Assembly: GCF_023702675.1 (NCBI RefSeq)
Contig: NZ_CP098478.1
Coordinates: 3,348,001-3,412,000 of the forward strand
Source of the DNA: Acinetobacter sp. C26M
GTDB taxonomy: Bacteria; Pseudomonadota; Gammaproteobacteria; Pseudomonadales; Moraxellaceae
Length of the DNA stretch: 64,000 bases
Direction of reading: 5' to 3'
Below are positions 24,636 through 28,524 of the stretch, piece after piece. The notes beneath the pieces were generated by a model that worked only from the letters and a program-made list of their open reading frames with translations, did no database searches and was not told where the DNA came from. A program made the translations under genes and the position numbers. Each line of letters starts with the position of its first letter. The stretch's first letter is position 1.

Positions 24636-25298
24636 ATGGCATTTGACTTAGTTCAATATTTTTCTGAACAAATTAAAATTCAAAAACCACAACTTTTTGG
24701 ACAATATTCTCCTAAAGAAAAACAAACATATATTGATGAAGTAAACGTGTTGGCTCTTGGACAACTCATTAGTCTGTGGAAACAAAATCCGCAGAAACTC
24801 TATCAAGAAGTTCATACAGCCGATCCACTGTATATTCAAGAGATTGCTCGCCATCTCACTACTTCAGCCCATAACCAATCGACCCTTAAAGCAACTGAAT
24901 TGGAAAAAAACCTCTCAGATGTTCTGGCCTTACAATTAACGGAATTGAAGCAGCTTGATCAGACTGGTAGTTTTGGGCAGACAGGACTCACAGAACTTTT
25001 ATTGGGTCAGATTGAACATTTATCTGGACAAGCAGAAGACTGGGTTTGGTCAACCAATCAACTCACCGAATTACTTGGCTCCAAGCCAGTTATTCAGCAA
25101 GAAGTATCGCTTGAAGCGACTATGCAAGAATTTAATCAAATGGTTCATCAGGCACAACCTCTTGCGCATGACCACGAGCCTGCTATTGAAGTGGAAACTC
25201 CAGAAATCCCAACATGGGCCTATATAGTTTCGCCTTTCGTAGCATTGGTCATTTTGATCTTTTTGTATTGCTCATATTGCCAACTCATTTCAGTTTAA
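24636..25298 (+). CDS. Tail-anchored protein of unknown function
   Basis: A 220-residue protein that begins 15 bases after sspB and so probably shares its transcript. Most of it is hydrophilic and helical, rich in Gln and Leu. A Glu-rich linker (EPAIEVETPEIP) precedes a single C-terminal membrane helix (about residues 195-216), leaving almost nothing after it. That suggests a cytoplasmic domain anchored at its C-terminus. No family recognised. Confidence 0.75.
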   Translation: MAFDLVQYFSEQIKIQKPQLFGQYSPKEKQTYIDEVNVLALGQLISLWKQNPQKLYQEVHTADPLYIQEIARHLTTSAHNQSTLKATELEKNLSDVLALQLTELKQLDQTGSFGQTGLTELLLGQIEHLSGQAEDWVWSTNQLTELLGSKPVIQQEVSLEATMQEFNQMVHQAQPLAHDHEPAIEVETPEIPTWAYIVSPFVALVILIFLYCSYCQLISV

Positions 25299-25512
25299 TC
25301 CTCCTCTAAAATGATAAGGAAAGTACGATTGCTTTCTTTATCATAGACTTAACATTAATTTAATTTTATTTAAAATATCAATTTACCCATATTAAAAAAA
25401 TTTATTTACATTTATTTACAATCAAAGAGTGCATTTAAATCCCTATATTAATGTGAATAAAATCACAATAAAAACCATTTATTATCCTCAATTAATATTT
25501 TTAATTGTTTAT

Positions 25513-25529
25513 TTGACAAAAATTGTCAA
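25513..25529. promoter_or_regulatory. Palindrome, possible regulator site
   Basis: Perfect inverted repeat TTGACAA-AAA-TTGTCAA, about 40 bases upstream of the -35 box of the module promoter. It also contains TTGACA, but no -10 box lies at the right distance. A protein-binding site is an inference. Confidence 0.4.
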
Positions 25530-25569
25530 TTATTAGCACTCCTGTGATTTCAATTATTTTAAAGCATGA

Positions 25570-25597
25570 TTGATTTAATAAAAGAGTTTCCTATAAT
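25570..25597 (+). promoter_or_regulatory. Promoter of the roadblock-GTPase module
   Basis: TTGATT (25570-25575) and a consensus TATAAT (25592-25597) are spaced by 16 bases. The predicted start leaves a leader of about 80 bases before the first roadblock gene. Confidence 0.7.
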
Positions 25598-25685
25598 GAG
25601 ATTAACTGCTTTTGAAAACTAATCATAAAACAGAAGTGGCGAATATAAATTCATAAACAAAGATGTAATTAGTAGAGATAAAATC

Positions 25686-26045
25686 ATGGCTAAAATTTCA
25701 TTAGAAAGCTTAACAAATATTGATGGATTCGTTGCGGCAGCGTTAGTAGACACTGAAAGTGGTTTAGCGCTAGCAACTCAAGGTGGGGGCGCAATCGACT
25801 TAGAACTAGCAGCAGCGGGTAACACCGAAGTTGTTCGAGCAAAACGCCGTGTTGCAAACTCACTTAAACTTAATGATGATATTGAAGATATCCTGATCAC
25901 ACTTGGTAAGGCATACCACTTAATTCGTCCACTTGAAAGCAATGGCAATTTATTCCTCTATCTCGTATTAGATCGTACTAAATCTAACCTCGCGATGGCT
26001 CGCCATGAATTAAAAACATTTGAAAAAGAATTAGACTTCGCTTAA
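25686..26045 (+). CDS. Roadblock/LC7-like protein 1
   Basis: A 119-residue cytoplasmic protein with the roadblock pattern: [24 protein letters not shown], a central helix ([19 protein letters not shown]), then strands [19 protein letters not shown] and [21 protein letters not shown]. Such proteins dimerise and act as GTPase-activating or scaffold partners of MglA-like GTPases. It has its own promoter and is followed by two hairpins before the next gene, suggesting it is made in excess of the others. The exact role is unknown. Confidence 0.75.
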
Positions 26046-26072
26046 TTCAAAATTTCAGTTTATGTAATATAT

Positions 26073-26138
26073 TAGACTTCTTGTGTATTCCTTATATTTT
26101 ATTTACTATAAAGTATAATAAAATATACAAGAGGTCTA
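26073..26138 (+). promoter_or_regulatory. Long intercistronic hairpin in the roadblock-GTPase module
   Basis: Arms 26074-26089 and 26122-26137 pair over 16 bases with two G-T pairs, around a 32-base AT-rich loop. No T-run follows. It could stabilise the upstream message or act as a processing site. Confidence 0.55.
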
Positions 26139-26140
26139 TT

Positions 26141-26168
26141 ATTAGTCTTTAGTATTAGACTAATTTTG
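26141..26168 (+). terminator. Possible attenuator after roadblock gene 1
   Basis: Perfect arms ATTAGTCT (26141-26148) / AGACTAAT (26157-26164) with an eight-base loop, followed by a short TTT. The stem is AT-rich and the T-run short, so termination would be partial. Confidence 0.45.
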
Positions 26169-26205
26169 TGCAGTCCAATATTTTACAAAATATTAAAGTG
26201 ATACT

Positions 26206-27174
26206 ATGAATGGACATTGCATTAATATCGCAATTTCAGGTATAAGTTTAAAAGTTTCAGATGAATTAAAAATAGAACTTAGAAAAACAATACCTCATGA
26301 ATTTGGCATTAACTGGATCAACATTGCCGATCCAAATATAGACTTATTATTAATAAATGAAAATTTTTTTGAAACTGAAGGCATTCAACGTATTTTAGAA
26401 CAAAAACAACTTCCCTGCTTAAAAGTTTCAAAAGGAGAAGGCTCACACCATATAGAAGAACACAATACACTTTATTTACCGTTCCAACATACGGATGCAT
26501 TAAAAGACTGGATTCATCTTCGCCTTTTAAGTTATCTCACTTATCAACAAGCACAACAACCCAAGACTGAAACCGTTTCTACGCACAATGCAATTAATGA
26601 AAAGTATTTAACCGATATGTTAAATCCTGATAATGCCCGTCTTCATTTATTTGATGATCACGGGACTTTGGCCATTATCGATACCCGTAGCCAAATTGCC
26701 TGGTTAGAGCCAACCCGTACACAAACACAAACCAATCATAGCTTTAAGTATGAGTTCGCTACGACTTCGAACTTCACGAAAGTCTCTCGAAAAGTTGAAT
26801 ATAACTTGCAAGATTGGTTATGGAACTTATTTTGGCATTCGCTGGAGTTCCAGCGCTTAGCCCCGAATGAAAATGAGTACTATAAAATTGAATATTGGCC
26901 TCAGCCAGCCCAAAGCACTGACCGTAAAACGGCCTTATTGCTTTCTGCTTGCTTCATACAAGGAGCTCAGCTGTATCAAGTTGCAACACAATTAAAACTC
27001 CCTATTCAAACGGTTCAACAATTTATCGCTGCCTGCATTATTTCGGACAACGGCGGCATTATCCCAGCTTCAGAAAGTCATTATTTACGAACAGAAAATT
27101 CTGAGCAAACCACTGAACAACAAGGCTTTTTAAATAAATTTTTCGGCAAGGTTAGACGCCGCTTTGGGCTTTAA
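26206..27174 (+). CDS. Unknown protein of the roadblock-GTPase module
   Basis: A 322-residue soluble protein. The first 110 residues look like a degenerate receiver-type alpha/beta domain (INIAISGISLKVSDELK, IADPNIDLLLINENFF, LPCLKVSKGEGS), without the phosphorylatable Asp context of true receivers. The C-terminal half ends in a possible winged-helix segment (AQLYQVATQLKLPIQTVQQFIAACIISDNGGII) and a basic tail. The gene is eight bases from the GTPase gene, so they are surely co-translated. It may be an effector or scaffold; no family was recognised. Confidence 0.7.
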   Translation: MNGHCINIAISGISLKVSDELKIELRKTIPHEFGINWINIADPNIDLLLINENFFETEGIQRILEQKQLPCLKVSKGEGSHHIEEHNTLYLPFQHTDALKDWIHLRLLSYLTYQQAQQPKTETVSTHNAINEKYLTDMLNPDNARLHLFDDHGTLAIIDTRSQIAWLEPTRTQTQTNHSFKYEFATTSNFTKVSRKVEYNLQDWLWNLFWHSLEFQRLAPNENEYYKIEYWPQPAQSTDRKTALLLSACFIQGAQLYQVATQLKLPIQTVQQFIAACIISDNGGIIPASESHYLRTENSEQTTEQQGFLNKFFGKVRRRFGL

Positions 27175-27182
27175 GGATTGAT

Positions 27183-27725
27183 ATGATTCTCCAACAATAT
27201 AAAATTGTTTTTGCAGGAAGCATGGGCGCAGGAAAAACGGAAGCAATTAAATCGCTTTCAGAAATCCCTGTCCTCGCAACCGAAGCATTCAATACAGATA
27301 GTCAGGCCCATAATAAAATGCAAACTACCGTTGGCATTGATTATGGCGAGATTACATTAGATGACGGTGTAAAAATTGGCTTATATGGCACACCTGGACA
27401 ATCCCGCTTTGATTTTATCTGGCCTGTGATTTGCCAAGGTGCTTTGGGGGTAATTTTACTGGTGGATCACAACAGTAAGGTACCAATCGAAGAACTTGAA
27501 GGGTACTTGGATACCTTCAAAGACTATACTAAAAATATTTCCATTGGCATTACCCATGTCGATGAACATAAAGGACAACCGACCACTATTTATCGTGAAT
27601 GGTTAATCCAAAACGACTATCAATATCCTTTATTTTTCATTGATGCACGTAAACAAGAACATATCTTGCTGATGATTGAATCGCTCATTGCAGCATTAGA
27701 AGTCAATTTAAAAGCAACAAATTAA
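27183..27725 (+). CDS. Small Ras-like GTPase
   Basis: A 180-residue single-domain GTPase of the COG2229/SRPRB-like group. P-loop GSMGAGKT (residues 12-19), switch I Thr in MQTTVGIDYG (about residue 49), G3 motif YGTPGQSRF (residues 68-76) and G4 as THVD (residues 124-127) instead of NKxD. No membrane anchor or lipidation motif is visible. The relatives include MglA and CvnD, which work with roadblock proteins, and here roadblock genes lie on both sides. Confidence 0.85.
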   Translation: MILQQYKIVFAGSMGAGKTEAIKSLSEIPVLATEAFNTDSQAHNKMQTTVGIDYGEITLDDGVKIGLYGTPGQSRFDFIWPVICQGALGVILLVDHNSKVPIEELEGYLDTFKDYTKNISIGITHVDEHKGQPTTIYREWLIQNDYQYPLFFIDARKQEHILLMIESLIAALEVNLKATN

Positions 27726-27747
27726 TTACTTTATAAAGAGAAGAATT

Positions 27748-28167
27748 ATGTTCAGTATTCCCAGTCAGCAACGTACTGCTCCCAAAGAGCTAATTCAATT
27801 TGCTAAAGCGCAGGCCAATGATGTTTTAACCAACATCCGAGGGGTGGATTATATTATGCTCTGCTCTACCGATGGATTCGAGTTGGCCTCGATTTACAAG
27901 AAGAACCCATATAACAGCACTAAACTTGCGGCTGTGAGTAGTTCAATCTTGGCCATGGTCACCGCTTTCCTTAATGAAATCCAGCTGACGGGATGTCAAA
28001 GTATTACTTTGGATGCTGAAAATGGCAAAGCGATTTTGACCTCTATTCCAGCCCCACATCACCCGATGGTGATGGTAACGCTAAGCAATAAAGATGTCTT
28101 GTTAGGACAGCTTTTATATAGCTTAAAACAAGCCAGCAGTGCAATCGTCGACGCAGACCAAGCTTAA
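27748..28167 (+). CDS. Roadblock/LC7-like protein 2
   Basis: A 139-residue protein 22 bases after the GTPase gene. It shows the pattern GVDYIMLCSTDGFELASIYKKN, a helix with STKLAAVSSSILAMVTAFLNEIQL, then CQSITLDAENGKAILTSIPAP and MVMVTLSNKDVLLGQLLYSLKQA. It is closer to the classic MglB/CvnB form than roadblock protein 1 and is a good candidate for the GTPase-activating partner. A terminator follows directly. Confidence 0.8.
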   Translation: MFSIPSQQRTAPKELIQFAKAQANDVLTNIRGVDYIMLCSTDGFELASIYKKNPYNSTKLAAVSSSILAMVTAFLNEIQLTGCQSITLDAENGKAILTSIPAPHHPMVMVTLSNKDVLLGQLLYSLKQASSAIVDADQA

Positions 28168-28182
28168 TCTTTTTCTCATCAA

Positions 28183-28217
28183 AAATCTGACAGACCTAGC
28201 AAGTCTGTCAGATTTTG
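28183..28217 (+). terminator. Terminator after the roadblock-GTPase module
   Basis: Perfect 13-bp stem AAATCTGACAGAC / GTCTGTCAGATTT with a seven-base loop and a T-rich end. Confidence 0.85.
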
Positions 28218-28524
28218 TCATTTATAACGTCTATAATAATACTGTACTTTTCAATTTTCATTTCTGAATCACTCTCATTTCTAAATTTCACTAATTAACT
28301 GCATCTATTTGTTAAAAATCTCCTAAATAAGTCAAAAATTTAGAATAAAATATTGTTTTTAAAAACATCAGATGAATGGTCATTAATTTAAATGATTTAG
28401 CAATATTTTTTCATTATTATAATTTTCGAACAAATAATCATCATAAAATTTTCACAAATGAATAATTTTAATAATGAGCGGTTGTATTTGTTCAAACATT
28501 ATTAAGCACTATGGAGAGATAAAG
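28218..28524. other. AT-rich intergenic region upstream of the phosphodiesterase gene
   Basis: About 300 bases with no gene; long A/T tracts only. I see no clear promoter pair or operator, although the region must carry the promoter of the secreted phosphodiesterase. Confidence 0.5.

Follow-up and report, generated by a model that had tools for sequence, protein, structure and literature searches.

A Group 3 MglA-type GTPase module of Acinetobacter and the case for a membrane-tethered partner protein with an exchangeable sensor

Introduction

Which signal enters, and which machinery responds, when a Ras-like GTPase is encoded together with two roadblock/LC7-like proteins? The question is raised by four genes in the stretch of DNA analysed here (the window; 64,000 nucleotides, positions 3,348,001 to 3,412,000 of contig NZ_CP098478.1), which is part of a closed chromosome of Acinetobacter (strain C26M; genome G000, 3,933,697 bases); the closest named relative of the window GTPase is that of A. 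gyllenbergii (99%). The genes lie on the + strand and encode a roadblock-like protein (RB1), a 322-residue protein (X), the GTPase and a second roadblock protein (RB2; Table 1). An earlier note, made from the sequence alone, had described the four reading frames, and all are present where it placed them.

Systems of this kind have been catalogued from sequence by Wuichet and Sogaard-Andersen in 2014 (PMC4316618). Their Group 3 MglA systems, nearly confined to the beta- and gamma-proteobacteria, join a GTPase and one or two MglB proteins to an unknown protein with a receiver-like N-terminus, a variable linker and a C-terminus resembling a winged helix-turn-helix (HTH), and the GTPases carry GTPGQ, a G4 motif deviating from [NT]KxD, and DAR (PMC4316618). 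Regulation of transcription was put forward there as a guess at what these systems do (PMC4316618). In the literature on Acinetobacter with roadblock, MglA or small GTPase, judged from part of the titles, we found no study of the present locus. The module is a real, conserved member of the catalogued class; the new element is the argument for a design with a membrane anchor and a sensor that can be exchanged. Such a sensor, together with the conserved tail of membrane type, points to a mechanism other than transcription regulation; bacterial small G proteins would then count among the direct sensory inputs to pili.

Results and Discussion

Group 3 features of the GTPase and its neighbours

The window GTPase matches ATP_bind_1 above the Pfam cut-off, Ras barely above it, and TIGR00231 with an E value of 3.5e-7, under the cut-off of that family. 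Its motifs are GSMGAGKT, TTVGIDYG, GTPGQ, THVD and DAR. Among 79 GTPases of at least 165 residues, GTPGQ is present in 76, TTVGIDYG in 75, IDAR or VDAR in 74 and THxD in at least 74. The window protein has the G4 without the usual Lys, the DAR in G5 and the Thr replacing Arg in G2 that mark Group 3, and of the one or two coupled MglB-type proteins expected in that group, RB2 is clear and RB1 is recognized on weaker profile evidence. The earlier note had singled out the G4 as changed; THVD is indeed there, but it is not unusual, since Group 3 GTPases typically carry an altered G4 and THVD is normal for the family. For the same reason a broken G4 was rejected. The change being typical of the family, the module falls in the catalogued class and, on its sequence features, belongs to the Group 3 MglA systems.

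Compared with the Group 3 systems of the survey, the receiver/HTH protein, the GTPGQ/altered-G4/DAR GTPase and the one or two roadblock proteins are shared, whereas RB1 comes first here and bears little resemblance to the canonical MglB type, and the receiver signature residues are lost (PMC4316618). The Group 3 mgl locus of Snodgrassella comprises mglA, two coupled mglB genes and one orphan mglB, and orphan copies also occur in our set; Snodgrassella, however, is of a different family, and its orphan is closer to the coupled mglB-2, whereas the orphans here are copies of RB1 (PMC11112851). The Myxococcus polarity system of MglA, MglB, MglC and RomR likewise has a Ras-like GTPase, more than one roadblock protein and a receiver-domain partner, but in Myxococcus partner genes such as romR lie elsewhere, and the Group 1 motifs (Arg in G2, TVPGQ) are absent from the window; a Group 1 Mgl system, as in Myxococcus and Thermus, was rejected because the window has TTVGIDYG and GTPGQ in place of the G2 Arg finger and TVPGQ. 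The Streptomyces conservon (CvnA-D, Group 2) is also a four-gene unit with a roadblock protein and an altered-G4/DAR GTPase. It was rejected as an identity because its NxFD stands against THxD (THVD in the window) and because a Pfam scan of eight proteins between 24195 and 30807, the four of the module included, found neither a histidine-kinase-like CvnA nor a CvnC, which we take to be the DUF742 protein. The earlier note had likewise called the usual sensor kinase and DUF742 genes absent, and the eight scanned proteins bear it out.

Protein X, its tail and the question of DNA binding

A profile of 75 X sequences matched 33 X proteins of Group 3 systems in other families (probability 98.2%, E 4.9e-14, 307 columns), while control profiles of the GTPase, RB1 and RB2 gave 0.1-0.3% in the same comparison. 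The match is mostly C-terminal, the C-terminus alone giving 97.6% and the N-terminus alone 24%. The 33 proteins were found via a profile of five X adjoining such GTPases and are not independent of that seed; they are taken as Group 3 from this adjacency, not from the survey's own list (PMC4316618), and the protein of locus L242 was left out, having been found with the Acinetobacter profile. A profile search of PDB with X yielded nothing convincing (best E 0.53), and a family search with A3 yielded only four proteins.

The N-terminal regions of the 33 Group 3 proteins match the receivers of PilG and PilH (95.4%); they hold the acceptor Asp in 20, the signature Lys in 23 and Pro in 31, with Gly for the first acidic residue in 25. 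At the inferred positions in Acinetobacter X, the acidic pair is Gly plus a hydrophobic residue in all 75, the Lys is absent from at least 73 of 75, and column 51, the acceptor by pattern, is mostly Asn (44) or His (25), with Asp in 3, followed by a column with Glu in 53 and Asp in 16. Accordingly, a phosphorylated response regulator was rejected as the identity of X on the acidic pair, the acceptor Asp and the Lys-Pro.

At the other end, the window X terminates in GFLNKFFGKVRRRFGL. Of 87 X proteins, about 80 of which are from Acinetobacter, 86 carry a net charge of at least +3 over their final 18 residues, as compared with none of 99 GTPases, one of 94 RB1 and one of 70 RB2, and conservation is 0.65 in the tail versus 0.40 in the preceding linker. 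In the last 30 residues, an amphipathic-basic score of at least 0.3 was reached by 30 of 32 X from outside the Acinetobacter family and by 52 of 203 background frames (unlabelled neighbouring frames of at least 200 residues, some of which may not be genes). By its composition and conservation, the tail would be a membrane anchor.

Does X nevertheless act on DNA? As proposed for Group 3 in 2014, the GTPase could control the HTH of X, making X the DNA-binding output protein of a transcription switch. At E up to 1, HTH_40 matches 30 of the 75 X (weakly; best 1.4e-4) and HTH_23 matches 20, and the published reading of the Group 3 protein is of a receiver with a winged HTH (PMC4316618). However, the putative recognition helix (residues 265-281) averages 0.95 Lys plus Arg and has two or more in 23% of the 75 X, and the HTH is followed by the amphipathic basic tail in the 30 of 32 distant X; both observations are compatible with DNA binding, but we regard a transcription switch as unlikely. 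The HTH-like part of X probably binds protein rather than DNA, and X, as we read these features, would be tethered to the membrane and serve as input, not as a transcription factor.

An N-terminal domain exchanged for BLUF

Two loci, L261 (genome G429) and L267 (G317), have the same RB1-X-GTPase-RB2 order as the window and an X that starts with BLUF (Pfam, 1.5e-23 and 3.8e-21). Three further loci (L093, L196 and L197) have the order X-GTPase-RB2-RB1 and give weaker BLUF matches (8e-11, 2e-10 and 2e-6). The BLUF domains of L261 and L267 keep a Tyr, an Asn and a Gln at positions that flavin presumably requires; the other three are without the Tyr. In its C-terminal half, the BLUF-type X is homologous to the other Group 3 X proteins (probability 91.5%, 98 columns, tail included), and it is via such other Group 3 proteins that the BLUF-type X is linked to Acinetobacter X. 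The exchange of the N-terminal domain for BLUF with retention of the C-terminal half indicates, at the level of sequence, that the N-terminal slot of X is exchangeable, as expected of an input domain. The earlier note had suggested that X might replace the kinase as input or output: the BLUF swap supports the input, while a DNA-binding output is not favoured. Neither the tail nor the BLUF exchange is mentioned in the accessible sections of the 2014 survey (PMC4316618).

In the papers found on BLUF with MglA, titles and the openings of abstracts point to no such module; one of the papers deals with pilus-driven phototaxis in a cyanobacterium.

Several results weigh against this reading of X. 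The Acinetobacter N-terminus alone gave no match to the PilG/PilH receivers (0.9%); of the receiver-like N-terminus and winged-helix-like C-terminus proposed in the earlier note, the former is supported for the class but not from this family alone, and the latter weakly, by the HTH matches. Compared directly with Acinetobacter X, the BLUF-type X matches weakly (13% and 4.9%). At a stricter tail score of 0.5, 17 of 32 X remain, versus 21 of 203 background frames, and a basic tail could equally bind nucleic acid or an acidic protein.

RB1 and RB2: two roadblock-like proteins that differ from each other

The roadblock genes that the earlier note saw flanking X and the GTPase are confirmed, RB2 by a match above the Robl_LC7 cut-off and RB1 through weaker profile matches. 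The window RB1 falls below the Pfam cut-off (E 9.5e-4), 12 of 27 RB1-type proteins match Robl_LC7 within an E limit of 1, the best at 1.8e-4, and an RB1 profile search of PDB returned one roadblock/LC7 protein, 7yh1 (E 0.0051); the RB2 profile returned CvnB5 (5.7e-12) and MglB (about 3e-4). An Asp-Gly pair, a feature of the MglB partners in Groups 2-5, is present in 11 of 12 aligned RB2 proteins and missing from RB1 at its inferred position, the RB1 and RB2 profiles being without a match to each other and not confidently aligned (3.2%). Because RB2 carries the pair and RB1 does not, RB2 is the better candidate for GTPase activation and is likely to be the GTPase-activating partner of the window GTPase. 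RB1 is likely to be a second adaptor, by analogy with MglC.

A third RB1-like gene, 35% identical, is present in the genome of the window (L159 8038-8508; G000:C1:1934049-1934387), where it lies near a response regulator and a membrane protein resembling the kinase of that regulator.

Proposed mechanism and output

Taken as a whole, our best explanation, which we hold tentatively and at somewhat less than even confidence, is a Group 3 MglA-type switch with X as anchor and input, RB2 as off-switch, RB1 as adaptor and pilus-based movement as output. X would hold the GTPase at the inner membrane via its conserved basic amphipathic tail, and the N-terminal domain of X would feed a signal to the GTPase; RB2 would turn the GTPase off, RB1 would serve as second adaptor, and the GTPase would drive type IV pilus-based surface movement. 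Nucleotide exchange on the Myxococcus GTPase is the task of a complex of RomR with RomX, and activation that of MglB (PMC9481161); RomR contains a receiver domain (PMC6785124). By analogy, X, as input and anchor, may play the part of RomR. A wider proposal, possible but rather doubtful in our judgement, is that Group 3 modules are a plug-in platform, in which a membrane-tethered X couples an exchangeable sensor, which would be a degenerate receiver in the window and a photoactive BLUF domain at L261 and L267, to a small GTPase of the Ras type and two dissimilar roadblock regulators, such that light, oxygen or another cue would steer type IV pili.

The output is the least certain part of the best explanation. 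At one class-wide locus (L245), the order X-GTPase-(divergent protein)-RB2-protoglobin is followed about 240 bases on by a T2SSE/MshEN ATPase and a T2SSF protein, whose genes we take to be pilB and pilC. Three other loci (L161, L169 and L173) have an orphan RB1 ahead of genes for a 546-residue protein, a pair of receivers, a CheW protein and an MCP, an arrangement like pilG-pilH-pilI-pilJ; the neighbours were identified by Pfam in L173 and by similarity in L161 and L169, a CheA-like protein lies behind the cluster in L161, and the three genomes gave no GTPase match. Matches of the 546-residue protein extend to frames of 2,289 and 2,772 residues; we assume it to be FimL-like, and FimL resembles the N-terminus of ChpA, which fits those matches. 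On soft agar, an allele of an orphan mglB altered the spreading of the Group 3 bacterium Snodgrassella and gave motile flares (PMC11112851). Judged from the small number of gene neighbours and this single published allele, the output is likely to involve type IV pili. The earlier note had offered polarity or surface motility as possible roles; here, too, they are inferred.

There are also results that speak against a pilus output, or against the scheme of which it is part. Proteins of type II secretion, too, fall in the T2SSE/MshEN and T2SSF families. Few loci have pilus genes in their neighbourhood: L245 alone of the 33 class-wide loci, as judged by eye and by Pfam on ten proteins from six of these loci, and three of the 20 orphan RB1 loci. 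The three pilus-adjacent orphans look like one clade, and we estimate that chance could place pilus genes beside one or two of 40 loci. The remaining orphan RB1 loci adjoin what is presumably pncB (ten) or presumably gatCAB (two), or lie elsewhere (five). Moreover, five of the 149 Acinetobacter genomes (G026, G119, G123, G150 and G169) keep RB1 without the GTPase, so that RB1 may have an additional role.

Might the same four-protein chemistry then serve a signalling switch unconnected with pili, for example in envelope or stress control? The locus follows genes that we take to be rplM, rpsI, sspA and sspB, with no pilus gene noticed nearby, and half of the 20 orphan RB1 loci adjoin a metabolic gene. 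The related Group 2 conservons, too, have non-motility outputs (PMC4316618). With the Snodgrassella phenotype and the pilus neighbours (L245; L161, L169 and L173) on the other side, we think such a switch improbable. Least probable, and distinctly so, is that X is a soluble scaffold whose tail binds RNA, DNA or an acidic partner: basic tails are not lipid-specific, and the hydrophobic moment of the tail averages only 1.1 standard deviations (sd) above shuffles in 87 X, but it is 1.9-2.8 sd above them in seven non-Acinetobacter X, and bulky hydrophobic residues alternate with Lys/Arg in X tails.

Distribution, gene order and co-evolution

The Group 3 assignment is accompanied by a wide distribution. 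Among 149 Acinetobacter genomes, RB1 was matched in 95, X in 93, the GTPase in 94 and RB2 in 92, and all four in 90 (88 among the matches listed, plus G001 and G110), some copies being broken by internal stops. Of the 100 genomes with any match, the other ten are the five with RB1 only, three with X and the GTPase but without RB1 (G022, G129 and G131) and two with fragments only (G002 and G018). Clusters were built from the matches listed (at least 150 RB1, at least 147 X, at least 150 GTPase, and 128 RB2) and, among these, comprise RB1-X-GTPase-RB2 (75), X-GTPase (34), RB1 alone (29), GTPase-RB2-X-RB1 (21), RB2-RB1 (13), X-GTPase-RB2 (9), GTPase-X-RB1 (4) and rarer forms. The earlier note had offered as a test whether the four genes travel together; they do so in the 90 genomes, yet their order varies and 29 listed RB1 copies are solitary. 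Across 59 four-gene loci, the distances of the GTPase and X correlate best (r 0.974, a correlation that includes shared species history), and mean pairwise identity is 0.85 for RB1, 0.70 for the GTPase, 0.65 for RB2 and 0.45 for X.

The GTPase profile matched 47 of 274 genomes of the class at E 1e-15 or better; the system is thus widespread. Forty loci were taken from this class-wide survey, with a GTPase frame called in 33. An X-type protein lies directly before the GTPase in 27 of the 33 and a roadblock-profile match nearby in 25, and the exact gene order of the window recurs in three (L242, L261 and L267).

A few loci depart from these patterns. The genome of the window has a second X-GTPase pair (C1:864770-866259) without adjacent roadblock genes. 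G022 (L092 7082-7609), which is without RB1 and RB2 matches, keeps X and a GTPase lacking the G2 and G3 motifs, as if the GTPase cycle needed roadblock partners. A 29-residue remnant of RB2 in G002 (G002:C23:466467-466553), a genome without the module, suggests secondary loss. In L251 and L255, a variant of the module, X-GTPase is followed by a fusion of an ATP-binding cassette ATPase with a tyrosine phosphatase (Pfam on L251 only) and then by a roadblock-like gene. In L243 (6849-8081), the Group 3 module is followed by a PAS protein and a binding protein of the phosphonate type (Pfam on L243 only), possibly as an extended sensory operon, and L244, L246, L247 and L250 resemble this arrangement by size and N-terminus. 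In L174, L176 and L177, the orphan RB1 lies within clusters that by appearance resemble mobile-element genes.

Layout and transcription signals of the locus

The genes lie in the order sspB (Pfam), a gene for a 220-residue protein, RB1, X, GTPase, RB2 and the terminator. X and the GTPase are 8 bases apart, the GTPase and RB2 22 bases, and RB1 and X 160 bases.

Table 1. Coordinates of the module and associated features within the window
Feature	Position	Strand	Basis
Candidate operator, perfect palindrome TTGACAAAAATTGTCAA	25513..25529		core mostly conserved, 15 aligned loci
Sigma-70-type promoter TTGATT-16-TATAAT	25570..25597 (TTGATT 25570, TATAAT 25592)	+	10/12 consensus bases
RB1, non-canonical roadblock protein, 119 aa	25686..26045	+	slowest-evolving member; weak Robl_LC7
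Two hairpins, conserved RNA element in RB1-X gap	26073..26164 (approximate limits)	+	folding and pair changes
X (322 aa), partner protein of a Group 3 MglA system	26206..27174	+	profile match to 33 Group 3 X
Predicted degenerate receiver-like domain of X (residues 1-112)	26206..26541	+	class-wide receiver match
HTH-like region of X with WP motif (residues 201-285)	26806..27060	+	HTH families, C-terminal match
Basic amphipathic tail of X, predicted to bind membrane (residues 307-322)	27124..27171	+	charge, conservation, amphipathic score
Ras-like small GTPase, MglA Group 3 type, 180 aa	27183..27725	+	Pfam, TIGR00231, G1-G5 motifs
RB2, MglB/CvnB-type roadblock protein, 139 aa	27748..28167	+	Robl_LC7 E 3.4e-6, above Pfam cut-off
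Intrinsic terminator, 14-pair stem	28182..28216	+	stem downstream of RB2

The promoter and terminator that the earlier note had assigned to the unit are both found, the TTGATT and TATAAT boxes being invariant in 15 aligned loci. The palindrome TTGACAAAAATTGTCAA, 40 bases upstream of the promoter, is likely to be the operator of the four-gene module; a pattern form, TTGACA-5-TGTCAA, occurs in 16 of 24 relatives of the locus at ssp (L031-L054). It has a single perfect copy genome-wide, and the four further sites with two mismatches equal the four control hits in number, so that no regulon is indicated.

The gap between RB1 and X (26046-26205) folds 6.2 sd below shuffles, into one long hairpin and a second hairpin. 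Five of the 28 consensus pairs are changed on both sides yet kept in at least one of 17 sequences; the covariation term is small (-0.94 kcal/mol). An Rfam scan of 25200-28500 gave no entry above threshold. With such a hairpin-bearing gap of 160 bases, the four genes may be unequally expressed, and the element could let RB1 be made at a different level. A near-invariant leader of about 40 bases lies between the hairpins and the start of X.

Directly 3' of the module are genes for a sphingomyelinase-like protein (28474-29868; TIGR03395 E 1e-43, below its cut-off) and a lipase-chaperone-like protein (29881-30810), a pair found in the same place in 21 of the 24 ssp-locus relatives; in L044, the sphingomyelinase-like gene comes after two intervening frames downstream of the module.

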